A stretch of DNA of 64,000 nt from NCBI RefSeq assembly GCF_017368815.1, contig NZ_JAFNME010000002.1, forward strand, positions 1-64,000. Direction: 5' to 3'. Below are positions 47,899 to 61,694 of the stretch, piece by piece. Position numbers and translations under genes: made by a program. Below the pieces are notes generated by a model that ran no database searches, was not told where the DNA came from, and saw nothing but the letters and a program-made list of their open reading frames with translations. This DNA is from Comamonas denitrificans. GTDB taxonomy: Bacteria; Pseudomonadota; Gammaproteobacteria; Burkholderiales; Burkholderiaceae_C. The stretch's first letter is position 1. The number at the start of each line of letters is the position of its first letter.

Positions 47899-47975
47899 TG
47901 CGGAAAGCCCGCTAGCGGTATTGGGTTGGGGTTTCTAGGATGGCAGCCACATTCAACAATCAGGAGAGTGGCGCT

Positions 47976-49829
47976 ATGCCTTTGGATTTAAACGTTCCGT
48001 CGTATGTTCAACACACCGGCCTCATTGCCTGGGTGGCCGATATGGCGGCCTTGTGTGAACCCAAATACATCCACTGGTGCGATGGCAGCCAAGAAGAGTA
48101 CGACGCGCTGTGCCAGCAGCTGGTCGATGCCGGTACGTTTACCCGCCTCAACCCGTTGAAGCGCCCGGACAGCTACCTGGCGCGCACCGACCCCTCCGAC
48201 GTGGCGCGGGTGGAAGACCGCACCTTTATCTGCAGCGAGCGCCAGGAGGATGCCGGCCCCACCAACAACTGGATGGCCCCGGATGCCATGCGCTCCACCT
48301 TGCAGCCGCTGTTTGCCGGGTGTATGCGCGGGCGCACCCTGTACGTGATTCCCTTCTCGATGGGGCCGCTGGGCAGCCCCATTGCGCAAATCGGTGTGGA
48401 GCTAAGCGATAGCGCCTACGTGGCCGTGAACATGCGGCTGATGACGCGCATGGGCCGCAAAGTGTGGGATGTGCTGGGGGCCGATGGCGCTTTCGTGCCC
48501 TGCATGCACACCGTGGGCGCACCGCTGGCCCAGGGTGCCACCGATGCCACCGTCTGGCCCTGCAACCCGACGACGAAATACATCGTCCACTTCCCTGAAA
48601 CGCGCGAAATCTGGAGCTATGGCTCGGGCTACGGCGGCAACGCCTTGCTGGGCAAAAAATGTCTGGCGCTGCGCATCGCTTCCAAGATGGGGCAAGACCA
48701 GGGCTGGCTGGCCGAGCACATGCTGATTTTGGGCGTGACCAGCCCCGAAGGGGTGAAGCACCACATTGCAGCGGCCTTCCCCAGCGCCTGCGGCAAGACC
48801 AACTTTTCCATGCTGGTGCCGCCGGCAGGGTTTGCGGGCTGGAGCGTGACCACTGTGGGCGACGACATCGCTTGGATTCAGCCGCAGGCCGACGGCAGCC
48901 TGCGGGCCATCAACCCCGAGGCCGGTTACTTTGGCGTGGCACCGGGCACCAACCTGCAAACCAACCCCAACTGCATGGCCAGCCTGCACCGCGACGTGAT
49001 CTTCACCAACGTGGCGCTGACCGACGATGGCGACGTGTGGTGGGAAGGGCTGGAGGCCGACCACGGCGGCCAGCTGCCGGCGCATTTGATCGACTGGCAG
49101 GGCCGGCATTGGACCCCGGCCATTGCCAAGGAAACCGGGGCCAAGGCCGCCCACCCCAACGCCCGTTTTACCGTGGCGGCGACGAACAACCCGGTGCTCG
49201 ACCCGGCCTGGGACGACCCCCAGGGCGTGAAGATTGATGCCTTCATCTTCGGCGGCCGCCGCTCCAGCACCGTGCCGCTGGTCACCGAAGCGCGCAACTG
49301 GGTCGAAGGCGTGTACATGGCCGCCACCATGGGCAGCGAAACCACCGCCGCCGCCTTTGGCCAGCAAGGCGTGGTGCGCCGGGACCCGTTTGCCATGCTG
49401 CCGTTTTGCGGCTACCACATGGGCGACTACTTTCGGCACTGGCTCGAGCTGGGCGAAAAACTGCAGGCCCAGGGTGCCACCCTGCCGCGCATTTACTGCG
49501 TGAACTGGTTTCGCAAAGGGGCGGACGGCCAGTTCGTCTGGCCCGGCTACGGCGAAAACATGCGCGTGCTGCACTGGCTGCTACAACGCCTGCAGGGCCA
49601 GGCCGAGGGCGAGGAAACCGCCTTTGGCATCGCCCCGCGTTATGGCGATTTGCATTGGCAGAGCTTGCCGTTTAGCCAAGCGCAATTTGCCAGTGTGACC
49701 ACGCTGGATCGCGCAATGTGGGCGCAAGAGCTGCAATCGCACGCCGAGCATTTCGCCCAGCTGGGGCCGCGCCTGCCGGTGGCGCTGGAGCAGGTGCGCC
49801 AGGCGCTGGCGCAGCGGCTGGCGGGCTGA
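47976..49829 (+). CDS. pckG: Phosphoenolpyruvate carboxykinase (GTP)
   Basis: A 617-residue gluconeogenic enzyme converting oxaloacetate plus GTP to PEP. GTP-class motifs are [15 protein letters not shown] (P-loop with the reactive Cys), [12 protein letters not shown] (metal-binding DD), and [11 protein letters not shown]. Start ATG 47976 is preferred because AGGAGAG lies nine bases upstream; ATG 47940 would add 12 residues without a ribosome site. Flanked by a terminator on the left and the convergent DUF2149 gene on the right with a 20-bp gap. Confidence 0.96.
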
Positions 49830-49849: not shown

Positions 49850-50242
49850 CTACTCCTGTGCCATCCCCGCCTCGGGCACGTAGACCATCGAGCCATCCTT
49901 CATCTTGTAGGCCACGCCGGCTTTGGCCCCCTGGCCTTCACCGATTTCGCCGCTGGCTTTGTAGTGCTCGATCTTGGCACCGTCCTTGATGATGACTTCC
50001 ATGTTCTCTTTGCCGGGGTTTTTGATAACCGTGACCTGCTCGGCGGTGAACGGGTTGGTCGGGCTTTGCGCCACGGCCAGCAGCAAGGCGGCGATGATGA
50101 CCAGGAACACGTCGATCAGGTTCACGACCGAGAGGATGGGGTCGTCCTCGTCGCTGTCCTCCAGCAGGCGGCGGCGGGTGCTTTGGGCGCTGGCGCTGTG
50201 CGCGATGGGCGCTGCGGGGGCGGGGGGATGGGCGGCACTCAT
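49850..50242 (-). CDS. DUF2149 (ExbD-like) protein of the tetrapyrrole-uptake cluster
   Basis: A 130-residue protein with one N-terminal transmembrane helix (ILSVVNLIDVFLVIIAALLL) that carries an aspartate (D44) in the membrane, as ExbD and TolR do, and a small periplasmic domain. DUF2149 genes accompany ExbB-like genes and CobN-like genes in haem-uptake loci. The start overlaps the stop of the ExbB-like gene (ATGA), so the two are coupled. Likely the proton-path partner in a cluster-specific motor; no TonB gene is next to it. Confidence 0.85.
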   Translation of the reverse strand: MSAAHPPAPAAPIAHSASAQSTRRRLLEDSDEDDPILSVVNLIDVFLVIIAALLLAVAQSPTNPFTAEQVTVIKNPGKENMEVIIKDGAKIEHYKASGEIGEGQGAKAGVAYKMKDGSMVYVPEAGMAQE

Positions 50243-50784
50243 GCGGCGGCCTCTTGCTTTTTCAGGGGCATGACGGTGGCGGGCGGCGCTTGGGGGGCGG
50301 CTTGGCCGGCCAGCTCGGCCTCGATGGCGGCCAGATCGACGGCATACCAGCGCTTGCGCACGTTCACCACGGTAAAGCTGATGGCCGCCGCCAGCAGAGC
50401 CAGGATGACGGCAGAAAAAGCAATCATCAGGCTGCGCGAGACATCTTGCAGCGCCCCGTCGGCCAGGGCTTTGAGCGCCGGGCCCATGGGAATCATGGTG
50501 GCCACCAGCCCCAGCATGGGTGCAACGCGGGTGGCAATGCGGGCAAATTCCAGGCGTTTGACGGCCACGGTCTCCAGCGCCACCAGGTCGCAGCCGGGGT
50601 CGGCGCGGCGCAGGGCGTGTAGCTCAAAGCCCGCCGGTTTGCCCTGGGTGCGTTGCCACGCCTGCCAGGCAAACGCGCCCAGCGCGTAGAAGGCGTGGAC
50701 GAACAGCGCGGCAATGGCCAGCAGCACGGGGTAGAGGAAGAACTGGCTGATGTCGTACATCGCCATTTCGATGGGGTTGGTCAT
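50239..50784 (-). CDS. MotA/TolQ/ExbB-family proton-channel protein
   Basis: A 181-residue protein with three transmembrane segments: FFLYPVLLAIAALFVHAFYA, VAPMLGLVATMIPMGPALKA and LMIAFSAVILALLAAAISFT. The last two match the MotA/TolQ/ExbB channel signature (APMLGLVATM with following Gly). Fused to a short Ala/Pro tail. It pairs with the DUF2149 protein downstream and, in the hmu layout, energises the outer-membrane receptor or the CobN-like enzyme. It follows hmuS-like gene by 127 bp that contain a repeat. Confidence 0.87.
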   Translation of the reverse strand: MTNPIEMAMYDISQFFLYPVLLAIAALFVHAFYALGAFAWQAWQRTQGKPAGFELHALRRADPGCDLVALETVAVKRLEFARIATRVAPMLGLVATMIPMGPALKALADGALQDVSRSLMIAFSAVILALLAAAISFTVVNVRKRWYAVDLAAIEAELAGQAAPQAPPATVMPLKKQEAAA

Positions 50785-50827
50785 GGTTCAAGCTCCTTGT
50801 GAAATCGGTTGGTTTGGTTAATTTAGG

Positions 50828-50908
50828 AGCTGTTTCCGCTTGTATTTAAACAATTTCATGAATAAATAGCTTTGAAATTGTTTTATTTAATTCGCAAACA
50901 GCTATTTT
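50828..50908. repeat. Intergenic hairpin repeat, copy 8
   Basis: AGCTGTTT ... AAACAATTTCA and TGAAATTGTTT ... AAACAGCT form a long imperfect inverted repeat, sharing the inner CAATTTCA/TGAAATTG pair with the copy at 63553-63628. It lies between the ExbB-like and CobN-like genes inside an apparent operon. Confidence 0.75.
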
Positions 50909-50911
50909 TAT

Positions 50912-53900
50912 TTATAGCATTGCCTTGCGCCGCTGCCGCCATGCGCCGCCTGCCGTGATGGTGGCCAGGCCCAGCCCCAGGGCCAGATGGCGCCAGGGCG
51001 GGTTGTCGGGCGCATCGGGCGCAGTAACGGGCTGCAGCAGTACGCCGCTGATGGGCGGGGGCGCTTGCTCCGTTTCTGGTGGCGGCGGTTCGGGCGCTGG
51101 CTCCGGTGGTGGCGCGGGCGGCGGTTCTGCGGCGGGCGGTTCGGGCCGCTTGGGTGTTGGCGCTGCGGCCGCCGGTGGTGCAGGCAAAGCGCGGGCCCCC
51201 TGGGGCGCGGCGGCGGTGGGTGTGGCGCTGGGCGCGGCCATGCCAAAGCCGATGCCCGGCTGGGCGCTGGCCCCAACCATGGCGGCAAAGGCGGCGTTGT
51301 CGGTGCGCACGTCAAAGCGTTGCGACAAATCCTGCCAGCGCGCTTTGAGCTCTTGCACGGTGGCCGCGTCGGCCTGCCAGTAGCCCTGGCGGGCGGCTTC
51401 CAGCATGCGTTCCATGGTTTGCGCTAGGGCGTGCGGGTTTTGCTGTTCAAACCACGTTGTCAGGCCCAGGTTGTGCTTGTCGCGCACGTAGACATCGACC
51501 ATTTCCTGCCATTGGTCGTCGCGCACAATTTCGCGGGCCACCGCTGTCCAGCCCCAGAAGTTGTTGGTCGCATCCAGCACTTGCAGCGTGCCGGCGTAGC
51601 CTTCTTGCATCAAGCCCTGGATGTAGCCGGGGTGGAACTGGCGCGTGGCCAGCTCTTTGGCCAGGAACTGCGCCGCGCCTTCCACCCGGCCGCTGCCTGC
51701 GCCGCGCAGGTTGCTGATGTACAGCGCGGGCGCTTTGCCATCGAGATGGCGCACGGCCAGGGCGATGCCGCCCAGGTACTGGAAGGGGTCGTCCGTGGTC
51801 AGCATGCCGTACAGGTTGGAGCTGCGCGAGAGCACAGCGCCCTGCGTGCCCTTGAGGTGCTCGGCGTACAGGTTCACGCCCTGGCGGCCCTCTAGCCCGG
51901 CCACGCCGGCCTGGCCCCATTGTTTTTCATCGGGGCCATAGGCGTATTGCATTTTCGACAGGTAAAGCTGGGCCAGCTTGCGGTCGCCTTCCTCTTTGCC
52001 GCTCCAGGTATCACTGGCCAGCACGGCATCGTCCAGGCCAGTGCCGTAGTTGCCGCTGGCCGAGGCAAAGATGCGCGTGGCCCCGGCCTGCGCGGCCACT
52101 TCGGGGGCGGCCCCCTGGGCGATGAGCTGCTGGGCGATGCGCTGGGCGTTGCGGGCCACGGGGTTGTCGGCTTCGTCCCTGGCCTGGCTGGCCAGCAGCG
52201 CGGCCTGGGCCAGTTGCTTCATAACGTTGGGGAAGTGGTCGCGGTACAGGCCGGTGGCCGACAGCACCACGTCCACGCGCGGGCGGCCCAGTTGTTCGCG
52301 CGGCACCAACTGCACGCCGGTGACGCGCCCGCCCGCATCCCACACCGGCTCCACGCCCAGCAGCCACAGCGCTTGCGCTTCCAGCAGGCCGAAGTGGCGC
52401 ATGGTCTCGACCGACCACAGGCTGAAGGTGAGTTTTTCCGGGGCCTTGCCGTGCAGTTGGATGTGTTCGGCGATCAGGTTTTCGGCGGCCTGCTTGCCTG
52501 CCTCCCACGCCTGCTTGGTGGGCACGCGCGAGGGGTCAAAGCCGTAGAGGTTGCGCCCCGTGGGGTAGGCATCGGGGTTCTTGATGGGGTCGCCGCCGTA
52601 GGAGGTGGGCAGGTACTTGCCATCCAGCACAGCCAGCAGGCCGGTTAGCTCGCCCTGGGCACCCAGGTTGGCGTAGGCGGTGCGGGCCTGCTGCAAAGAT
52701 TTTTGCAGCGCCTCGGGCAGGTCGTCCACGGGTTCGCCTTGCACCACGTGGCGCTGTAAGAGTTGGTAGGGCACGGTCTGCGCCAGTTGTTCCCAGGGGC
52801 CGACCAGGGCTTCATCGGCATCTTCCGGCGGCACGCCAGCGTGGATAGCGGCGGCATCCCAAAAGGGCTGGCCCAGCATCAGCAGCACGGTGCCTAGGCG
52901 GTGCAGCTCCTCAGGTGCTTTGCCAAAGGAGTGCAGCCCTTGCGGCTGGGCGGTTTGTGCCAGCTCGTGCAGGTGGTCGTGCAACTGGCGCACAAAACCG
53001 GCAAAGTCGGCCTGCACCTGGGGCACGGTCAGGCCCAGGTCGGCCACCACGCGCTCTTTTTGTGCGGCGGCCAGCAGGTCGATGGCGGTGCGTTCTTTCA
53101 CCGCGCCTTCGTCCTGCGCCAGCCATTGGTGCAGCAGGTCGTGCATGTGCGTCAGCGCCGCGTGCAGGCCGCCAGGGGCAAAGGGCGGCGTTTGGTGGCT
53201 GATGATGGTGGCGCGGCCCCGGCGCTTGGCCTGGGTGGCTTCGCCGATGTTGTCGGCAATGTAGGGGTAGGCCACGGGGATGTCGCCCAGCGCCAGCAGG
53301 GGCGGGTCGTACACGGACAGGCCGCGCTCCTTGCCCGGTAGCCATTCCTGCGTGCCGTGGGTGCCAAAGTGGATCAGCGCATCGGCGCGCTGGCGCGTCC
53401 ACAAATAGGTGGCGAAGTAGTAGTGCGAGGGCAGGGCGGTGGTGGAGTGGTAGATGGCTTTTTCCTTGCTCACCTGCCCGTCGGAGCGCGGCGGCTGCGG
53501 CAGGATGAGCACCTTGCCCAGTTGCAGGCGCGGGATAACGAAAAAGTCCTGCCCGCCCCGGCGCACCACCATGCGCGACTGCGCCGGGTCGCCCCAGGCT
53601 TGATGCAGCGCGGCCTGCGTGGCCTCGGGCAGCTGCTTCAGCCAGGCGCGGTAGTCGGCCAGCGGCAGCAGCTCGGCCAGATTGGCTTGCAACAGGGGCT
53701 GCAAGCGGCCTGCGCGGTAGGCCGGGGCCAGCAGGTGCTGCAGCTGCTCGATCAGCGCGTCTTCTTGCGGCGTGGTGGTGTCGTAACCGGCGGCCTGCAT
53801 GCCGTCCAGCACGTGGCGCAGGCTGCGCGGCACGTTCAGGAACGAGGCGGAGAGGTTTTTCTCCCCCGGCGGGTAGTTCCAGAACATTACCGCCACCTGC

Positions 53901-55033
53901 TTGTCGGCGTTGGGCGTGCTTTGCAGTTTGGCCAGGCGCACGGCCTTGTTCACCACGGCCTGGGCCTGCGGGGCGATGGCAACGATTTGCTCATCGCTTT
54001 TGCGCGTGGCAGCGGCCACCTGGATGTCGGTCACGCCCGCGTATTCGGGCTGGGCCAGGTAGAAGGGCACGTCCATCAGCGCCACGCCGTGCGGGTCGTG
54101 CTCCCAGTCGGCCGGCTCGCCGCGCCGGTAGGGCATGGCCTGCAGCACGGGCACGCCCAGGGCGGCAAACTCGGTGCGCCGGTCTTCGGCGTTGAGCATG
54201 ATTTGCGTGGTGATCAGCACATCCACCAGCGGGTGGCCCGCCGCGTCTTGCAACATCCGGGTGAAGCCCTTGGGCTCCATCATGGGCGTGTAGAACGGCA
54301 GGGCGATGGCGCCGCTGGCCTCGATGCGTTCGATCAGGTCGTCGATAAACGCCGTCTGGATGGAGGCGATGTACTGCTGGTGCAGCGCCAGCCCAACGAT
54401 GGCCGGGCGCTGGCCGCGCGGCGCGGCAGGGTTCACGCCCTTCCAGGCGAAATACTCCTGCGCGGTGGCAAACACCTGCTGCGCTGCTTTGGGGTGGTAA
54501 ATCGCCGCTTTGGGGTAGAGCACCGGATCAGCCACCGCTGGCGCAGGCTGGCCGCGCAGGTGGGCGCTTAAGGTGGCGAAAAAGCCCTCGAAGTTTTGCC
54601 GCCCGCCATTCACGTAAAACGGGTGCAGGCGCTGGGCTACGGCATCGGGCAGGCCGCTGGCCTGGGCCTGCGGGCCGTACAGCCACATGTGCGGCTGCGT
54701 GAGGTGGGGCAGGGCGGGGGCGAGGTGCTCGCGCACTTCGTCGACCAGGTAACTGTCAAAAAACACCGCGTCGTGCCCCTGCCACAGCCCGCCGTCGCTG
54801 TTCTTGGCAATGCGGTGCAGGTAACGCACCTGCACCGCCACGCCGTAGGGCGCGGCAATCGCGGCCAGTTGGCGGAACTTGCCTGCCGGCACGTTGCCGG
54901 TGGCAATGAACAGCACCGACAGCGGCGGCTGTTGCGCAGAGGCCGAGGGCACCGCACCGGGCGGCTGCGCCCAGGCCGCGCTGCAGCCCAGTGCCAGCAG
55001 CCAGGCACACCAGAATTGGAAAATTTTTTTCAT
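50912..55033 (-). CDS. Periplasmic, membrane-anchored CobN/HmuS-family protein (putative haem dechelatase)
   Basis: A 1373-residue CobN-family protein (IHFGTHGTQEWLPGKERGL, GDIPVAYPYIADNIGEATQAKRRG and IFASASGNYGTGLDDAVLAS are the family's core segments). Unlike cytoplasmic cobaltochelatase CobN, it starts with a signal peptide (MKKIFQFWCAWLLALGCSAAWA) and ends with a proline-rich tether (about 1290-1340) and one transmembrane helix followed by RQRRKAML. No CobS, CobT or other cobalamin gene is near. This architecture and the TonB-receptor/ExbB/DUF2149 neighbours match HmuS of Bacteroidota, reported as a haem dechelatase. Substrate and direction of chemistry are inferred. MKK at 55033 is the start. 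Confidence 0.88.
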   Translation of the reverse strand: MKKIFQFWCAWLLALGCSAAWAQPPGAVPSASAQQPPLSVLFIATGNVPAGKFRQLAAIAAPYGVAVQVRYLHRIAKNSDGGLWQGHDAVFFDSYLVDEVREHLAPALPHLTQPHMWLYGPQAQASGLPDAVAQRLHPFYVNGGRQNFEGFFATLSAHLRGQPAPAVADPVLYPKAAIYHPKAAQQVFATAQEYFAWKGVNPAAPRGQRPAIVGLALHQQYIASIQTAFIDDLIERIEASGAIALPFYTPMMEPKGFTRMLQDAAGHPLVDVLITTQIMLNAEDRRTEFAALGVPVLQAMPYRRGEPADWEHDPHGVALMDVPFYLAQPEYAGVTDIQVAAATRKSDEQIVAIAPQAQAVVNKAVRLAKLQSTPNADKQVAVMFWNYPPGEKNLSASFLNVPRSLRHVLDGMQAAGYDTTTPQEDALIEQLQHLLAPAYRAGRLQPLLQANLAELLPLADYRAWLKQLPEATQAALHQAWGDPAQSRMVVRRGGQDFFVIPRLQLGKVLILPQPPRSDGQVSKEKAIYHSTTALPSHYYFATYLWTRQRADALIHFGTHGTQEWLPGKERGLSVYDPPLLALGDIPVAYPYIADNIGEATQAKRRGRATIISHQTPPFAPGGLHAALTHMHDLLHQWLAQDEGAVKERTAIDLLAAAQKERVVADLGLTVPQVQADFAGFVRQLHDHLHELAQTAQPQGLHSFGKAPEELHRLGTVLLMLGQPFWDAAAIHAGVPPEDADEALVGPWEQLAQTVPYQLLQRHVVQGEPVDDLPEALQKSLQQARTAYANLGAQGELTGLLAVLDGKYLPTSYGGDPIKNPDAYPTGRNLYGFDPSRVPTKQAWEAGKQAAENLIAEHIQLHGKAPEKLTFSLWSVETMRHFGLLEAQALWLLGVEPVWDAGGRVTGVQLVPREQLGRPRVDVVLSATGLYRDHFPNVMKQLAQAALLASQARDEADNPVARNAQRIAQQLIAQGAAPEVAAQAGATRIFASASGNYGTGLDDAVLASDTWSGKEEGDRKLAQLYLSKMQYAYGPDEKQWGQAGVAGLEGRQGVNLYAEHLKGTQGAVLSRSSNLYGMLTTDDPFQYLGGIALAVRHLDGKAPALYISNLRGAGSGRVEGAAQFLAKELATRQFHPGYIQGLMQEGYAGTLQVLDATNNFWGWTAVAREIVRDDQWQEMVDVYVRDKHNLGLTTWFEQQNPHALAQTMERMLEAARQGYWQADAATVQELKARWQDLSQRFDVRTDNAAFAAMVGASAQPGIGFGMAAPSATPTAAAPQGARALPAPPAAAAPTPKRPEPPAAEPPPAPPPEPAPEPPPPETEQAPPPISGVLLQPVTAPDAPDNPPWRHLALGLGLATITAGGAWRQRRKAML

Positions 55034-55094
55034 TGCAGCCAGACCAACCCCGCAGGGGGTAGTTATCAAGAGCTGGTTCCGCAAATAAATAATA

Positions 55095-55155
55095 GATTTC
55101 AGATAGTTTTATATCTGAAATCAATATTTATAAAGCGGAAAAAGCTATTGTTTTT
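55095..55155. repeat. Intergenic hairpin repeat, copy 9
   Basis: GATTTCAGATA (55095-55105) and TATCTGAAATC (55112-55122) are perfect arms; the tail TAAAGCGGAAAAAGCTATT belongs to the dispersed family. It lies between the receptor gene and the CobN-like gene and could be an intra-operon processing or attenuating hairpin. Confidence 0.7.
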
Positions 55156-55158
55156 AGA

Positions 55159-57135
55159 TTAAAAATCCATCCGCGCATTCACAAAGAAGCGCCGCCCCTG
55201 TTCGGCCCAGCCGAAGTTGGGCGACTCCTCCTGCATGCGCACATTGCCCAGGTTCTGAATGCCGGTGCTTAGGTGCAACTGGCGCTCGCCACCCAGCTTC
55301 CAGGCGCGGCCCACGCTGGCGTTCCACAGCGTGTAGGTGGGCAGCTTGCCGCTGGCGCTTTGCTGCTTGCCCGTGGTTTCCGCGCCCAGCTGGGTGCGCC
55401 ATTGCTGCACCTGCCACACCAGGGTGGAGTTCCACGCTACGCGCGGGCGGTCGTTCAACTGCTGGCCCGTGGTTTTGTCGCGGGTGTGCAGCCAGGTGGC
55501 ATCGTTGTTCCACTGCAGGCGCGGGGTGATGTCCCAGGTGAAGCCCGCTTCCAGCCCCTGGATGCGGGCGGCATCCACGTTGTCGTACTGGTAAATGCTG
55601 CGCGGGCCGATTTTTTGCAGCAGGCGGTAGGTGATGAGCTGCTTGACTTCGGTATGGAACACCGTGGCCCGCAGCGCCAGCTGCGGCGCGGCCTGCCAGT
55701 TGGCGCCCAGCTCAAAGGCGTTGGAGGTTTCCGGCTGGATGTTGCCGTTGCCCAGGAAGGAGTGCGGCCCCTCGGCCCCGACGTAGTTGGGCGAAATCTG
55801 CTTGAGCGTGGGCGCTTTGAAGGCGTGGCCATAACCGCCCTTGACGACCAAGTTCGGGCTGGCCTCCCACACCAAGTAGGCGCGGGGGCTGACTTCTGAG
55901 CCAAAAATCTCGTGGTGGTCGCCACGCAGGCCCAGGGTGGCCATCAGGTTCTGGCCCAGGGCGAACTCGTCCTGCACGAACAGGGCTTTGTGCGTGGCTT
56001 CGTCCTGGCCGTTTTTCAGCCCGGCATTGACCAGCTCTTCCTTGCGCCATTCGCCGCCCACGGTGATTTGGTGGCTGCCCCAGCGCGTGCTGGCGTGGCC
56101 GTCCACCACGCTGTCGCGCATGTCCTGCGGACGTGTGGCGGCCACGCCGTTGTTGCGGAAGTTGCGGATGCTGATGTCGCTGCGGTAGGCCCGCAACTGG
56201 CTGCGCCAGCCATTGCCCCAATCGGCATTCCAGCTGGCGTGCTTTTGCGTGCGATCTAACTCGTAGCGGTTGTGGTAGTACGTGGGGGTGCGGTTGATGT
56301 CATCGGAATCGCGCTTTTCCAGGCCGTCTTGCACGCCAAATTCCACCTCATGCCCGGCCACGGGCTGCCAGCTGGCGGTCAGCCCCAGGCTGCGTGTGCG
56401 GTTGCCCTCGATTTCAGACTGGGCGCGGTCTTCCGGCAGCACGGTGCTGCCCTGGTAAGACTTTTCGGCGTTGATGGCCAGGTTGAATTGCTCGCCCAGC
56501 GGGCCAGCGGCATACACCGAGGTGCGCAAGGCATCTGCCGCCGTGTCCGAATCCAGCCCCGTCGCGCCAGACAGGCTGATCGAGGCCATCCAGCGGTCTT
56601 TCGGCTTTTTCGTGATCAGGTTGATGACCCCGCCCAGCGCCTCGGAGCCGTACAGCGCCGACAGCGGGCCACGGATGATCTCCACCCGCTCCACCGCCGC
56701 CATGGGCAGCCAGCCGTATTGGTAGTCGGAGTGGCCAATCACGTCATCGCTGGCGCTGATGCGCCGCCCATCAATCAGCGTCAGCGTGTGCTTGCCCTCC
56801 ATGCCGCGCAGCGCCAGCGTCTTGCGCCCGCCCACCTGCCGCCCCTGAAAGGTCACCCCCGGCGTGCCGCGCACGGCATCGAGCAGGTTGGCCGCATTGC
56901 GCTGGGCCAGCTCCTCCTCGGTCACCACCGTCACACTGGCGGGCGCGGTGCGGGCCTCTTGCTCGGTCATGGTGGCCGTCACCGTGACGGCTTGCAAGGT
57001 GTGCTGCCCAGCTGGTGCGGCGGCCAGCAGGGCATCGTCAGCCGCCGTGGCGGCCTGGGCCAGACCGAACACTAAAAAAGTGGCCAAGGCCACGGGATGG
57101 GGCGGGTGCGCCGGGGTGAGAGAGGATGGTTTCAT
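55159..57135 (-). CDS. TonB-dependent outer-membrane receptor (haem/metallotetrapyrrole or iron)
   Basis: A 658-residue receptor: signal peptide (to about residue 31, FGLAQAATAA), TonB box LQAVTVTATM, plug domain (LLDAVRGTPGVTFQGRQVGG; LTLIDGRRISASDDV; VERVEIIRGPLSALYGSEALG) and a 22-strand barrel ending in phenylalanine (RFFVNARMDF). FKAPTLKQISPNYVG followed by GPHSFLGN and GNIQPETSNAFELG mirrors the FRAP/NPNL block of haem receptors, with a histidine between them; catecholate receptors look similar. A Fur-like box is 16 bp upstream. The start at 57135 is preferred over 57153. Confidence 0.92.
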   Translation of the reverse strand: MKPSSLTPAHPPHPVALATFLVFGLAQAATAADDALLAAAPAGQHTLQAVTVTATMTEQEARTAPASVTVVTEEELAQRNAANLLDAVRGTPGVTFQGRQVGGRKTLALRGMEGKHTLTLIDGRRISASDDVIGHSDYQYGWLPMAAVERVEIIRGPLSALYGSEALGGVINLITKKPKDRWMASISLSGATGLDSDTAADALRTSVYAAGPLGEQFNLAINAEKSYQGSTVLPEDRAQSEIEGNRTRSLGLTASWQPVAGHEVEFGVQDGLEKRDSDDINRTPTYYHNRYELDRTQKHASWNADWGNGWRSQLRAYRSDISIRNFRNNGVAATRPQDMRDSVVDGHASTRWGSHQITVGGEWRKEELVNAGLKNGQDEATHKALFVQDEFALGQNLMATLGLRGDHHEIFGSEVSPRAYLVWEASPNLVVKGGYGHAFKAPTLKQISPNYVGAEGPHSFLGNGNIQPETSNAFELGANWQAAPQLALRATVFHTEVKQLITYRLLQKIGPRSIYQYDNVDAARIQGLEAGFTWDITPRLQWNNDATWLHTRDKTTGQQLNDRPRVAWNSTLVWQVQQWRTQLGAETTGKQQSASGKLPTYTLWNASVGRAWKLGGERQLHLSTGIQNLGNVRMQEESPNFGWAEQGRRFFVNARMDF

Positions 57136-57150
57136 GACAATAAATGTAAA

Positions 57151-57165
57151 CAAGAATAATTCTCA
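57151..57165. promoter_or_regulatory. Fur box upstream of the receptor gene
   Basis: CAAGAAT-A-ATTCTCA is a 7-1-7 inverted repeat close to the Fur consensus TGATAAT-N-ATTATCA, 16 bp upstream of the receptor ATG on the minus strand, in an AT-rich promoter stretch. It implies iron repression of the whole 49.85-57.14 kb cluster. Confidence 0.72.
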
Positions 57166-57390
57166 TTAAAATTATGACATGGTTTTTTTGGTGCTTTCCT
57201 TGTTTTTTCACCCAAGCAAGCGCCAGCATGCGGGTGCCGCTGCGCTTGCCCCTTGCGCCAGCGCAGCAAGGGCTGGCGCAAGCTTTATGATCGTGCGCTA
57301 TTGGCACCCATTCACCACTGGGCAGGCACAGTCTGCTGGCCTGCACCCGGTACCCTTTACCCCTCACTTTAGAATTTTGGGAGATTGACC

Positions 57391-57816
57391 ATGAAAATTT
57401 TGCTGGCCATTGACGGTAGCCCCTACTCCAAAAAAATGTTGGCCTACCTGTGCGCTCACGATGAGCTGATCAACGCCGGGCGCAACACCTTTACCGCCCT
57501 GACGGTGCTGCCCGCCATCCCCCCGCGCGCCCGTGCGGTGTTGAGCAAGGAAATGGTGGATGAGTACTACCGCGAGGAAGGAGCCAAAGTGCTCGATCCC
57601 GTGCGCAAGTACTTGGAGCAAAGCTGCATCTTCCCGAAAGAGCGGCTCGAAGTTGGCCACCCCGGCGATATCATTGCCAGCATTGCCGAGGACGAAAAGT
57701 ACGACCTCATCATCATGGGCACCCACGGCCACGGGGCGCTGGGGCGGCTGGTGATGGGCTCGGTCAGTACCCAGGTGCTGGCCAATTGCAGCGTTCCGGT
57801 GATGTTGATTCGGTAA
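57391..57816 (+). CDS. Universal stress protein (UspA family)
   Basis: A 141-residue single-domain Usp. MKILLAIDGSPYSKKML begins the fold and GTHGHGALGRLVMGSVSTQV carries the ATP-binding G-x2-G-x9-G-S/T signature. GGGAGATTGACC precedes ATG 57391. It is a stand-alone gene ended by a two-way terminator; the 255-bp gap on its left carries the Fur box and receptor promoter and is otherwise unremarkable. Confidence 0.93.
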   Translation: MKILLAIDGSPYSKKMLAYLCAHDELINAGRNTFTALTVLPAIPPRARAVLSKEMVDEYYREEGAKVLDPVRKYLEQSCIFPKERLEVGHPGDIIASIAEDEKYDLIIMGTHGHGALGRLVMGSVSTQVLANCSVPVMLIR

Positions 57817-57919: not shown

Positions 57920-59185
57920 TTATTTTGAATTTTCCTTTTGAATCCATTGCATGGAAGACAATATAAATATCAAAGAAAATAAATAAAAATTATGTCCTAT
58001 AACAAATGTGAAGAACACATCAGACAAGCCGAATATAAAGTATCCGAAATAAATTAAAACTCCTGAGATCACCAGAAATTTATTAATAGATATTAATCTT
58101 TCGTTATTTTTTATGATGTAATTGTTTTTTCTATAAAAAGATATTATTAATAAAATTGGTATAAGATAGATGCCGATTAAAGCAATGATGCCAATGATTC
58201 CTCTGCGTGCCCACATCTCAAGAAAGTCATTGTGGGCATGGTTGTATTCCATAATGACAGGATTTGAAATTGATTTTTCAACATACTCCAGCCGTTTGTT
58301 TTGAATATTTTTATCACCCCATCCAGTAAATGGTTTTTCTTTACCCATTAGCAAAGCGGTTTTCCACATCTCTAAGCGAGCTCCCAGCGATGTTTGCACA
58401 TACTGCTCGTGCTCATCAAAATAGCCATTTATCTGCTTAGTAGCTTCTTGTATTCTGGATTCTACTGGAGGTAGATTAATAAAAATTAAAAAAATTGGTA
58501 GTAGAGATAGCGTAAAAAATAATGCTATTTTTTTACTTTCTCGAAAAATGAAAAAAAATATAACTGGGATGGCGATTAAAGCAGGCCATCCGCCCCGAGA
58601 AAGAGAAAGAATAGACGCTAGCAATCCAAAAAAACTTGCTATCGCAAAAAACGTGCGCTCTTTTGTTGAGAAAAATTTGAGCATTGCGGCGCTTAATGAA
58701 ATAATACCCATCAAGATAGCAAGATCACCAAACCGAATGGCATTGGTAAAACCTTCAGCACGGCCCATTTCCTCATATTGCATGGTGGCCAAGATTCCTG
58801 CAGCAATACCGCCTGCAGAAAGTCCATAGAGCACAGCGTGGGGATTGATTGGCACTTTGCTTAAAACCACCATCAGCCAAGCACCCAGAATATATCTGAC
58901 CAGATAATCACCTTTGAGACTCAAAGAAAAAAGATCATCAAAGGTGTGGCTCCAAAAAAATCCAAGAAACAACAAAAATCCAGAGGCAAATTTTATCTCT
59001 TTGGGTATTTTGCTATTGCGCTTCAAAGGTATAGCCAGAAGCGTTGCCACCAGCATAAGTACCATCGCTAGCGAATGCCCATATTTTGTTGCAAGTAAAA
59101 GTGAAAAAAATAAAAAAACTGAAGCATTAACCAGAAAGGATACTGCATCTCGGTAGCGGTCTTCAGTTAAAAAGCTTGGATTCAT
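57920..59185 (-). CDS. O-antigen ligase/polymerase family membrane protein
   Basis: A 421-residue protein with about 10-12 transmembrane helices and a Wzy_C-type periplasmic loop (LGARLEMWKTALLMGKEKPFTGWG, then YNHAHNDFLEMWARRGIIGI). The conserved Arg and His of this loop are expected for transfer of an undecaprenyl-linked glycan to lipid A core or to a protein. LPS ligation is the simplest call; a pilin oligosaccharyltransferase cannot be excluded. A/T-rich; overlaps the upstream GT25 gene by 23 bp, so it is the last gene of a four-gene operon. Confidence 0.88.
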   Translation of the reverse strand: MNPSFLTEDRYRDAVSFLVNASVFLFFSLLLATKYGHSLAMVLMLVATLLAIPLKRNSKIPKEIKFASGFLLFLGFFWSHTFDDLFSLSLKGDYLVRYILGAWLMVVLSKVPINPHAVLYGLSAGGIAAGILATMQYEEMGRAEGFTNAIRFGDLAILMGIISLSAAMLKFFSTKERTFFAIASFFGLLASILSLSRGGWPALIAIPVIFFFIFRESKKIALFFTLSLLPIFLIFINLPPVESRIQEATKQINGYFDEHEQYVQTSLGARLEMWKTALLMGKEKPFTGWGDKNIQNKRLEYVEKSISNPVIMEYNHAHNDFLEMWARRGIIGIIALIGIYLIPILLIISFYRKNNYIIKNNERLISINKFLVISGVLIYFGYFIFGLSDVFFTFVIGHNFYLFSLIFILSSMQWIQKENSK

Positions 59186-59951
59186 AATTTAGCAATTCTT
59201 TAATTATTTTTTTCTCATACCGAGAGCGTTGTGCAGCATCCAAAGCGCGGAAATACTCTCGTTTTATTTTTTTTAAAAATCCGATGGCTGGCTTAGAACG
59301 ATCCCCAATGCTGGATGGCGTATCGGCATCTGAAGTAAAAAACACAGCAGGTGACACGTCCAGCAGACAGCAACCATGATCCCAGCCACGCCACATATAG
59401 TTATCCACAGCACAAAAAAACTTTTCGCTCTGCGCTGCCAAAATCTCCGCAACTTGGGGGGAAATAATGTAGCCCATGGCCGTGGACGGGTCGCGCTGAT
59501 ACCTCACGATATTGAAATCATCAGAAATTTTTTGTAAGATCTGAAATTTTCTATCAAATAGGTTTCCAAGCCTTACAAAAAGATATTCTGCTTTTATTTT
59601 TTCAATGATCAAATGAACAATTTGAGCTGCCTGAGCAAAGTCTCCAACATAGTATTTTATTTTTATATCATCCTCCAGTATGAGAAATGGAATACCTTTG
59701 CGCGCACACTCTTCCCAGAGCGTGCGGTGCGAAATAAAACAGGCGATCTCGTTGATTCTCAAGTCATAACCCAGATTTCTTAGTCTTTTTTCACGATTGT
59801 ACATTCCTAAGTAATTAGAGATATCCTCGCCAGCAATCGCATCAAAAAATGACCATTTGAGGCACTGCCCCTCAAGAATCGCTTCTATTTTTTTTCGGCG
59901 ATGCGTTTGGTTTTTCAGAGAAATGACATGAATTTCAAAATTTTGTGACAT
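59163..59951 (-). CDS. Glycosyltransferase family 25 protein (copy 1)
   Basis: A 262-residue LOS-type transferase: start MSQNFEIHVISLKNQTHRRKK; GEDISN region; INEIACFISHRTLWEECARKG and FLILEDDIKI (acidic LEDD, metal/nucleotide-sugar binding); AMGYIISPQVAEIL. GT25 enzymes usually add galactose or another hexose to LPS core. It overlaps its upstream neighbour by one base (TAATG) and the ligase gene by 23 bp. A/T-rich like the rest of the operon. Confidence 0.88.
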   Translation of the reverse strand: MSQNFEIHVISLKNQTHRRKKIEAILEGQCLKWSFFDAIAGEDISNYLGMYNREKRLRNLGYDLRINEIACFISHRTLWEECARKGIPFLILEDDIKIKYYVGDFAQAAQIVHLIIEKIKAEYLFVRLGNLFDRKFQILQKISDDFNIVRYQRDPSTAMGYIISPQVAEILAAQSEKFFCAVDNYMWRGWDHGCCLLDVSPAVFFTSDADTPSSIGDRSKPAIGFLKKIKREYFRALDAAQRSRYEKKIIKELLNYESKLFN

Positions 59952-60718
59952 TAGGATTTAAACGACAGAAAATTAATATAGGCTAAAATATTATTTTTTA
60001 ATAGACGTAGTTGCTTTTTCATAAAAAATGAAAAATCTCTATTCTCTTTTTGTTTACGCCTGACCCTTTCCGTGGCTACGGTTCCCAAAATATCGCTATC
60101 TAGCCCCGCAGGTCTGACCAATGGCGGCCATATACTCAAACCTTTACCATTTTTGATCAGCCAATTTTGGAAAAAAATATCTACCGGAAGACAGGGATTT
60201 TGGGCCATCTTCAAAAAATCATGTGCGCCCTGCCGGCTCCAAACCAACCCCACGCCACGAATAGGAAAATAGTAGGCGCGCACCAAAGAGTAATCATGGG
60301 TACGAAAAATTTCTCGGCTTATCTTATTTTTTTTTGCGGCAATATTGATCAAGCTCCACTCTATATTTTTTTGAGAGTGCAAATAATGCAGAATCTCTTG
60401 CAGAGTAGATGAAAAATTGTTATCTATACGCAGATCATCTTCCAGCACCACTAGATAATCTGCATCCGTTTGCAAGAATTTTTCCACACAGCCGTAGTGA
60501 CTGAGATAGCAACCCAACTCTGAATTAAGCAGACTGCGGCCCAATATTTTTTTGGCCTGGCGGTCGTCATAGTTGGTAAAGTCACGGATATTTTTTCCAC
60601 GACCATCGTATGCTGCATAACGCTTAAATGCCCAACCTGCAGCATCCAGCTGCTCTTTGGCGCTGGCAAGCCTGGCCGTGCTACCGTCTAGGTTAATCAG
60701 ATAAGTTTCAATCTTCAT
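59951..60718 (-). CDS. Glycosyltransferase family 25 protein (copy 2)
   Basis: A 255-residue GT25 protein: MKIETYLINLDGSTARLASA, NSELGCYLSHYGCVEKFLQ and LVVLEDDLRIDNNF (LEDD). It differs substantially from copy 1, so the two probably make different linkages. The start MKIETYLINLDGS at 60718 is chosen; it overlaps the Stealth gene by 11 bp. Membrane-associated or cytosolic glycan assembly enzyme; sugar donor unknown. Confidence 0.88.
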   Translation of the reverse strand: MKIETYLINLDGSTARLASAKEQLDAAGWAFKRYAAYDGRGKNIRDFTNYDDRQAKKILGRSLLNSELGCYLSHYGCVEKFLQTDADYLVVLEDDLRIDNNFSSTLQEILHYLHSQKNIEWSLINIAAKKNKISREIFRTHDYSLVRAYYFPIRGVGLVWSRQGAHDFLKMAQNPCLPVDIFFQNWLIKNGKGLSIWPPLVRPAGLDSDILGTVATERVRRKQKENRDFSFFMKKQLRLLKNNILAYINFLSFKS

Positions 60719-61694
60719 GATGACTTTCAATCATGGCAAGGGGCAAAAATTCTTTGAATTTCTCACACATTGCAAAATTTATCTCTTGCGCCTGAGATGT
60801 AGGTAGCTGATCTAAACTTTGCATGCAACCATACTTGATTTCTTCATCTTTTATTTTTTTCAAAAAATCCGGTACCCCTTGCAGATTCTTCAAATATGCT
60901 AAAGGCACATCGGGCTGTAGTAGCGCTTCGTGCCGTGTTATTTTGAGATGTACCGAGAGCGCTACGGGGTTCAGTTGATCAATGCTTCTAAATCGATGTC
61001 GGATCTGGCGGTGTAATACATCGGGGAATTGCTGAAAAAATTGGGCCAGCGAGTCCTTGTCTAGGATGTGTGGGTGGTGGTGGACTTTGAAAAATTTTCT
61101 CAAGCCCACCGCTTCTGCGCCCAACATTTGCGACACGGTATGTTTGGCCGCTGGTTTTTTTGCAAAAATATTTGCAATCGCCCGCCTGAGTCCTGTTTTT
61201 ATTTTGATGGTAAAGTTATTTTCCCAATGACCTCGGAGCACTACTTTTTCTCTTCTGATAAAGTCTTCTATGCTGGCTGGCGCATTGAAGAAAAAATCAT
61301 CGTTCAAATACAAAAAATATTTAGATAAGTCCTTTATTTTCCATAATAGACTTTCAATCGAAAGTGAATTAAAGGTGGGGTAAAACTCCTCGTATCCTTC
61401 AAATATCTCTTTGTGATCAATTATTTTTATTTGTCCTTGAGCGCACAACCCTTGTGCAGAAAACTCATGCACATACGCCGGAGTCTGTCCATCGGTCACT
61501 ACAAAAATAGTTCCACAAAATGGAACGTACTTCAGGATCGAAGCAATACAAAAATAAATCTCATGGTTGCTGGCAAATCGCGTTGCTTCAGCAGCGGCTG
61601 CCGTCTCACTTTCGCCCGCATACTGGGCACGTCGGCGCTGCCATACGGGATCACTGCCATCAACCCAGGCAATCACGATGTCCATTTTTTGCAT
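60708..61694 (-). CDS. Stealth-family polysaccharide phosphotransferase
   Basis: A 328-residue Stealth protein: CR1 MDIVIAWVDGSDPVWQRRR, the following FASNHEIYFCIASILKYVP, CR2 YFLYLNDDFFFNAPASIEDF, CR3 around KVHHHPHILDKDS and CR4. Stealth enzymes transfer hexose-1-phosphate to a glycan. It heads the Stealth-GT25-GT25-ligase operon, suggesting a phosphodiester-bearing surface glycan. GGAGGG precedes ATG 61694. Composition is more A+T-rich than flanking genes, consistent with horizontal origin. Confidence 0.88.
   Translation of the reverse strand: MQKMDIVIAWVDGSDPVWQRRRAQYAGESETAAAAEATRFASNHEIYFCIASILKYVPFCGTIFVVTDGQTPAYVHEFSAQGLCAQGQIKIIDHKEIFEGYEEFYPTFNSLSIESLLWKIKDLSKYFLYLNDDFFFNAPASIEDFIRREKVVLRGHWENNFTIKIKTGLRRAIANIFAKKPAAKHTVSQMLGAEAVGLRKFFKVHHHPHILDKDSLAQFFQQFPDVLHRQIRHRFRSIDQLNPVALSVHLKITRHEALLQPDVPLAYLKNLQGVPDFLKKIKDEEIKYGCMQSLDQLPTSQAQEINFAMCEKFKEFLPLAMIESHHED

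Follow-up and report, generated by a model that had tools for sequence, protein, structure and literature searches.

The hmuYRSTUV loci of Bacteroidota (PMC12583661; PMC13227078) combine a membrane-anchored CobN-type protein, HmuS, with a TonB-dependent receptor, an ExbB-like protein (HmuU) and a DUF2149 protein (HmuV). Iron shortage raises the hmu genes, according to the accessible part of PMC10434189, and a 2025 report describes HmuS as a dechelatase. In the available portion of that report, B. theta HmuS converted haem to protoporphyrin IX (PPIX), the enzyme required His538, the His538Ala exchange abolished turnover, and His1209 and Glu1212 face His538 (PMC12583661). Here we describe a similarly composed four-gene cassette of Comamonas denitrificans, located in a stretch of 64,000 nucleotides (NCBI RefSeq assembly GCF_017368815.1, contig NZ_JAFNME010000002.1, positions 1 to 64,000 of the forward strand) that we refer to as the window. 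The cassette is best read, plausibly if somewhat short of probably, as a system repressed by iron that would draw iron from haem or a haem-like iron tetrapyrrole and would need no haem oxygenase.

Three further lines of work bear on the cassette. A third kind of CobN-related protein was given the name BtuS in 2003 (Rodionov), with a proposed role in salvaging metalloporphyrins, according to the accessible text of PMC6460266. That text predicts BtuS1 and BtuS2 to be periplasmic and anchored, and describes a Bacteroides fragilis btuS1 btuS2 double mutant that grew poorly on haem while PPIX was still released. The BtuS members that we found studied come from Bacteroides and Methanosarcina, with two in Methanosarcina barkeri (2024, available part of PMC10846266). 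A plasmid-borne CobN of Trichlorobacter (Geobacter) lovleyi lies beside TonB-type genes without CobS/CobT (2012, available part of PMC3403914). The closest studied kin of the Comamonas cassette is the PA1922-25 operon of Pseudomonas aeruginosa, which is reported to be Zur-controlled and was not considered in the earlier, sequence-only reading of this DNA; in the accessible texts, mutation of znuA raised it 45- to 147-fold and it has a predicted Zur site (PMC4542158), and it was strongly raised in zinc starvation (PMC11761036). No literature linking the proteobacterial cassette to haem, or giving a division into Fur, Zur and riboswitch types, was found in our search, outside which most subscription journals fell.

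Results

The cassette runs from position 57165 to 49850 of the window, with all four genes on the minus strand and read in one direction. The first gene encodes a CirA-like TonB-dependent receptor of 658 residues (55159..57135), assigned by Pfam, NCBIfam and the nearest solved structure; it is followed by a 1373-residue CobN-like protein of the membrane-anchored BtuS/HmuS type (50912..55033; Pfam, NCBIfam and structure model), a 181-residue ExbB/TolQ/MotA-like proton-channel protein resembling HmuU (50239..50784; PF01618), and a 130-residue DUF2149 protein resembling HmuV, whose one membrane helix carries Asp44 (49850..50242; PF09919 and alignment). The last two genes overlap by 4 bases, and a Fur-like box, TGAGAATTATTCTTG, lies on the same strand 15 bases 5' of the receptor ATG (57151..57165). 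HmuR, HmuS, HmuU and HmuV all have counterparts here. Gene calls, Pfam and NCBIfam matches and inspection of the sequence bear out the gene set, single direction, signal peptide and anchor, membrane aspartate and Fur-like box that the sequence-only reading had put forward.

The CobN-like protein matches PF02514 with 1004.4 bits and NCBIfam NF004644 with 1385.5 bits (cut-off 1248). NF004644 names the protein CobN, and two of its putative active-site residues, Asp and Gln, are as in CobN, which would suit a CobN of the usual kind, a cytoplasmic subunit in aerobic cobalamin synthesis. Such an identity is nevertheless extremely improbable: it is opposed by the signal peptide and tail anchor, by the receptor-ExbB-DUF2149 context, and by a CobS search and two trees, on which it was rejected. 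The genome, 3.0 Mb in 74 contigs with a completeness of 99.98%, holds a single CobN-family (PF02514) gene and a single DUF2149 gene, both in this set. Beyond CobN, the search for cobalamin genes covered CobS, whose best score in it is 29.9 bits against a cut-off of 558.55. The NF004644 cut-off is exceeded in 14 of 100 family genomes, the Comamonas genome included, and in 8 of 398 phylum genomes; none of these 14 has a CobS match above 37 bits. Ten other genomes match the CobS model at 497-532 bits, none above the curated 558.55. CobS-like proteins (502-532 bits) without any NF004644 match were seen in genomes G098, G040, G046, G094, G082, G044 and G052.

In a 47-row tree (mixture model, short search, hand-chosen rows, HmuS represented by four rows of which one consists of pieces of PDB 9d26), the anchored CobN-like rows, HmuS included, split from canonical CobN and ChlH with a Shimodaira-Hasegawa-like approximate likelihood ratio (SH-aLRT) support of 98. 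HmuS thus falls on the same side as the window protein against canonical CobN, whose rows hold together at 100, while the window protein itself lies inside a clade of proteobacterial sequences and outside HmuS. Canonical CobN was again separate (100) in a 60-row tree built with a simpler model from hand-chosen rows, in which the lone HmuS row was not resolved. The N-terminus, MKKIFQFWCAWLLALGCSAAWA, cut before Q, reads as a signal peptide (residues 1-22; 54968..55033, minus strand), and the tail, LALGLGLATITAGGAW, reads as a membrane anchor (residues 1350-1365; 50939..50986, minus strand) followed by RQRRK. A C-terminal hydrophobic segment is present in 110/115 proteins grouped as anchored and in 0/7 canonical CobN; N-terminal hydropathy does not discriminate (107/115 versus 6/7), and the two hydrophobic segments of the window protein fail a stricter 19-residue threshold, so the predicted topology derives from reading the sequence and from the relatives. 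Together these findings support the earlier claim that the protein is not a cytoplasmic cobalamin CobN; of the refuting conditions named with that claim, neither a grouping with CobN in the tree nor a CobS in the genome was observed. Cobaltochelatase CobN has the overall fold and the Asp/Gln at the second metal-facing position in common with it, but differs in being cytoplasmic, in having the ATP-motor partners CobS/CobT, and in its separate clade. By its predicted features the protein fits the description of the BtuS type, taken second-hand from the accessible text of PMC6460266: a relative of CobN that is periplasmic, is anchored and has no part in cobalamin synthesis.

Evidence for iron control comes from the relatives, the best 80 of 555 confirmed in a scan of genome contigs. 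The window box has 2 mismatches of 14 to the Fur consensus TGAKAATNATTMTCA. With five loci lacking full upstream DNA set aside (L100, L104, L107, L144, L168), 76 upstream regions from 81 loci were scored. A Fur-like box with at most two mismatches occurs in 34/76 regions compared to 7/1900 locally shuffled ones, and with at most three in 47/76 compared to 63/1900; by loci, the latter threshold gives 46/80 against 28/800 random windows of the same loci. Zur-like sites with at most three mismatches were found in 1/76 regions (27/1900 shuffled). Among loci with the window's receptor class, 10/22 carry a box with at most two mismatches. These scans supersede an earlier one that used a 19-base consensus on 13 receptor-first loci with mixed results, the window, L061, L078 and L079 being clearly Fur-like and L069, L070, L072 and L074 not. 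The iron link that had been proposed for the window is supported by these boxes across the clade.

The receptor matches PF00593 (185.8 bits), PF07715 (101.6 bits) and the NCBIfam CirA model PRK10064 (307.5 bits, cut-off 745), and its closest solved structure is the colicin I receptor 2hdf. Between its FKAP and GNIQPE boxes lies His458 (55762..55764, minus strand), which in the receptor alignment takes the place of the haem-receptor loop histidine. According to the accessible part of a review (PMC3832793), the loop between the FRAP and NPNL boxes of haem receptors bears one of two histidines required for haem transport, and His458 conforms to this description. Of 31 receptors of the window's class, 30 have a histidine in the stretch that links the FKAP box to the GNxxxPE box, the lone one without it, L160, being a mistranslated row; the position is Phe in 4/4 Zur-linked receptors, and alignment with E. 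coli CirA places no histidine there. In sister loci of the window's clade, 8/8 scanned divergent upstream receptors score above curated haem/haemoglobin cut-offs, and two extra downstream receptors fall under them. In 21/80 loci a ChaN-type haem-binding gene lies on the same strand, either in the cassette itself or no more than 1 kb away from it, with no ChaN match elsewhere in the 80 loci; the assignment was by PF04187 in the two genes tested.

The same receptor raises the alternative that the substrate is an iron chelate that is no tetrapyrrole, for instance a ferric siderophore-like compound, imported by the CirA-like receptor and stripped of its iron, or passed on, by the CobN-like protein. 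We consider this unlikely. The receptor is closest to colicin I and enterobactin-type receptors, the boxes are of the iron type, and the window's receptor class never occurs with ChaN in the 80 loci, all of which speaks for this alternative. Conversely, the CobN, ChlH and HmuS proteins studied all act on tetrapyrroles (available text of PMC12583661), CirA-like and other receptor classes are interspersed along one CobN lineage, and the histidine at the haem-receptor loop position has no equivalent in E. coli CirA.

A search for hemO, which the sequence-only reading had called for, found no haem oxygenase match in the Comamonas genome, and none for HemS; the known haem-iron routes are therefore missing from it. 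Among eight other family genomes with a Fur-type cassette, haem oxygenase is found in two, HemS in two, both in one and neither in five, so that 6/8 have no haem oxygenase match. B. fragilis uses a FeoB-type ferrous transporter once iron is removed (accessible part of PMC6460266), and the FeoB_C domain occurs in 7/8 of these genomes versus 53/100 family genomes.

Several observations weigh against a haem-uptake function for the window cassette. FeoB, searched as FeoB_C, was not found in the Comamonas genome. The B. fragilis btuS1 btuS2 double mutant, from which porphyrin is still released (PMC6460266), also counts against such a function. By inspection of open reading frames, no gene lies between the CobN-like gene (50912) and the ExbB-like gene (50784), no HmuT gene adjoins, and there is no HmuY gene next to the receptor, the search for HmuY having been confined to this position. 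The receptor scores below the haem cut-offs of TIGR01785 (hemin; 229.1 bits, cut-off 316.85) and TIGR01786 (195.4 bits, cut-off 323.75), and the window's receptor class occurs in none of the 21 loci with ChaN. Only 4/41 other-class upstream receptors of the sister loci carry the loop histidine, which is therefore not a universal mark. The Fur-like box is absent (more than 3 mismatches) in 29/76 upstream regions, is found in 0/5 CirA-like loci beginning with an ATP-binding cassette (ABC) binding protein, and is weak and not conserved in the closest relative, L092. The earlier claim of haem uptake therefore stands in part: the haem-class receptors and ChaN genes of sister loci and the loop histidine of the window's own receptor speak for it, and the score of that receptor does not.

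To these must be added the active site. His559 of the HFGTHG motif (53357..53359, minus strand) aligns with the catalytic His538 of HmuS, a feature that is superfamily-wide and therefore weak evidence for HmuS membership. The HmuS residues His1209 and Glu1212 are replaced by Asp1082 (51788..51790) and Gln1085 (51779..51781, both minus strand), as in CobN; in place of the HmuS motif LSLDHxxEFMGG the window has LTTDDPFQYLGG. The Asp/Gln pair is found in 89/89 rows of the window's group, so that the proposed likeness to HmuS is not supported at the active site, and also in 9/9 riboswitch-clade rows. Canonical CobN has Asp or Glu, with Gln, in 7/7, and four more gammaproteobacterial rows have Asp with Gln (three) or Glu (one). 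The His/Glu pair is kept in 4/4 Zur-linked proteins and in the nickel-linked Azospirillum protein. This count omits 4/80 named loci whose CobN-like proteins have 1150 residues or fewer. The HmuS head and neck haem ligands, Met79 and His254-Gly-Arg, correspond to a gap or other residues in a poorly aligned region, and one of three HmuS references (L194) likewise lacks Met at the Met79 column. The stretch corresponding to the methionine-rich insertion of HmuS domain IV spans about 80 residues in the window protein compared to about 240 in 9d26; methionine density does not separate all HmuS references and hence does not discriminate.

A structure model of residues 38-1236 (mean predicted local distance difference test score, pLDDT, 87.7) gave HmuS (9d26) and CobN (7c6o) as the top PDB folds, with about equal match, and a structural alignment with 25% identity to HmuS. 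Given this tie and the Asp/Gln pair, we do not file the window protein as HmuS, although it may still act as HmuS does. By the His/Glu criterion, the HmuS-like sequence is that of the P. aeruginosa-type zinc protein, since His/Glu is kept in the Zur-linked proteins where the window has Asp/Gln. On the strength of this HmuS-type pair in the Zur-linked cassettes (L183, L184, L076, L077), PA1923 is a candidate zinc-tetrapyrrole dechelatase.

The missing catalytic pair would also suit a CobN-like protein that acts as a periplasmic chaperone or regulator, holding or channelling a metal or tetrapyrrole and removing no metal itself, and so would the B. fragilis double mutant, poor on haem yet still releasing PPIX (available text of PMC6460266). 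Against this stands the production of PPIX from haem by B. theta HmuS and its loss in His538Ala (available text of PMC12583661), the equivalent His559 being kept here, and we hold a chaperone role to be distinctly unlikely.

The ExbB-like protein matches PF01618 weakly (25.9 bits, cut-off 22.9), and comparison with one annotated ExbB was not significant; the DUF2149 protein matches PF09919 with 103.3 bits. Its membrane aspartate, Asp44, is conserved in 18/19 aligned rows, with Glu in Runella. Alignment of the DUF2149 protein with one annotated ExbD covered 15 membrane-helix columns at a probability of 1.6%, no ExbD was among its PDB profile matches, and its structure model was poor (pLDDT 61, predicted template modelling score 0.25); its likeness to ExbD is thus a reading of the NLIDVFLV motif. 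The ExbB-like gene is present in 72/80 relatives and DUF2149 in 71/80. At the eight loci without an ExbB match, 0 to 1905 bases of DNA remain 3' of the CobN-like gene (less than 700 in seven, 1905 in the eighth). In Trichlorobacter, an exbB-exbD-tonB set distinct from the ExbB-DUF2149-CobN unit lies next to that unit, and among 14 control genomes DUF2149 was found only in Methanosarcina acetivorans, which is without an outer membrane. These two observations, together with the varied regulatory contexts of the cassette, suggest that the ExbB-like/DUF2149 pair works on behalf of the CobN-like protein, not of the receptor.

The regulatory contexts of the sister loci differ by metal. In loci L183, L184, L076 and L077, the CobN-like proteins are 39-42% identical to the window's and the four-gene order is the same, with Zur-like boxes at 2-3 mismatches and no Fur-like box under five. 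One of these, L183, very probably is P. aeruginosa PA1922-25, to which, on that assignment, the window shows 39-55% identity over the four proteins. The common order, the CirA-like receptor in both, and the induction of PA1922-25 in the znuA mutant with its predicted Zur site (PMC4542158, as accessible) would favour a zinc, or cobalt, acquisition system of the same kind in Comamonas. PA1922-PA1925 differs from the window in its Zur box, its His/Glu pair and the Phe at the loop-histidine position. The best Zur box upstream in the window has 5 mismatches, the Zur-linked clade (support 100) and the window's 30-row clade (98) are separate groups in the 60-row tree, and the loop Phe and the active-site pair differ from the window in 4/4 Zur-linked loci. 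The box, the clade and the receptor loop led us to reject Zur control of the window, and a zinc (or cobalt) function of this kind is very improbable.

Another anchored clade, whose gene order is ExbB-DUF2149-CobN, carries an upstream cobalamin riboswitch on the cassette strand, at a distance of several kb, in 6/7 loci (L060, L062, L064, L065, L067 and L075, with L082 lacking one); none was found in L066 and L068, both on short contigs. The six riboswitch-linked genomes have no CobS match above 37 bits. Cob-like neighbours were noted by eye in L060, L066 and L068. Corrinoid or cobalt salvage by the window cassette would gain from this clade, which has the same Asp/Gln pair, and is improbable given the Fur-like box, the different clade, and a search of the window that returned no riboswitch or other RNA at gathering score. 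Two loci point to possible nickel versions: an Azospirillum plasmid (L198:4563-16521), where nikR lies near a cassette that falls inside the Zur clade, and a Runella plasmid (L188:2140-11718), where the cassette stands amid hyp hydrogenase-maturation genes. Because sister units are linked to Zur, cobalamin riboswitches and nickel genes, there would be one periplasmic chassis for several metals, of which the window probably carries the iron version.

The nearest named relative among the 80 is uncultured Comamonas ISORED-1, at 92% identity. Two other genomes of the genus were included in the phylum search, one without a match and one with a 594-bit match of canonical type, and the cassette therefore looks accessory; in Diaphorobacter it resides on a 242-kb plasmid. 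A NitT/TauT-like ABC transporter lies near the cassette in 12/80 loci (L094, L097, L098, L099, L102, L111, L132, L145, L147, L148, L156, L167), NnrS is confined, among the 80, to 11 of these 12, and a Crp/Fnr gene accompanies the Diaphorobacter plasmid copy (L190); these neighbours suggest a connection with denitrification or anaerobic growth. Azonexus hydrophilus and a Rhodocyclaceae metagenome-assembled genome have, beside the first, another CobN-like gene with 39-40% identity to that of the window (L118:14763-18963; L124:14366-18169). By eye, the operon is flanked in the window by a divergent universal-stress-type protein gene (57385-57816), a GTP-type phosphoenolpyruvate carboxykinase-like gene (47940-49829) and glycosyltransferase-like genes (59163-60730).

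Discussion

Taken together, a working model for iron acquisition from haem by the window cassette can be put forward. Judging from the box and its clade-wide enrichment, Fur would repress the operon at plentiful iron. The receptor, with its loop histidine, would draw on TonB energy to import the tetrapyrrole into the periplasm. The CobN-like protein, on the outer side of the inner membrane, would take the tetrapyrrole into its central cleft, where His559 and Asp1082 would lie opposite each other across the metal site, and free the iron; here the fold comes from the structure model, and the chemistry is argued by analogy with HmuS, whose His/Glu pair is a CobN-type Asp/Gln here. The ExbB-like/DUF2149 pair would drive the CobN-like protein by the proton gradient, replacing CobS/CobT, an ATP motor that cannot work in the periplasm. 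The freed iron would then enter, in this strain, by some transporter that is not FeoB.

A broader proposal, which we regard as doubtful, would make the anchored CobN-like protein a general proton-driven metal-stripping machine of the periplasm, with the ExbB-like/DUF2149 motor replacing CobS/CobT or ChlI/ChlD. The machine would have been rewired for iron (Fur; the window), zinc (Zur; PA1922-25), cobalt (riboswitch) and nickel (NikR/hyp), through matching changes in the receptor and in one active-site pair.

If these proposals are true, they would point to a proton-driven, ATP-free chelatase motor, of which we found no description in the literature searched, and would provide the unexplained CobN-like gene in the zinc regulon of P. 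aeruginosa with a role open to testing. Oxygen-independent extraction of iron from haem, shown for Bacteroidota in the literature covered, would then extend to many beta- and some gammaproteobacteria.

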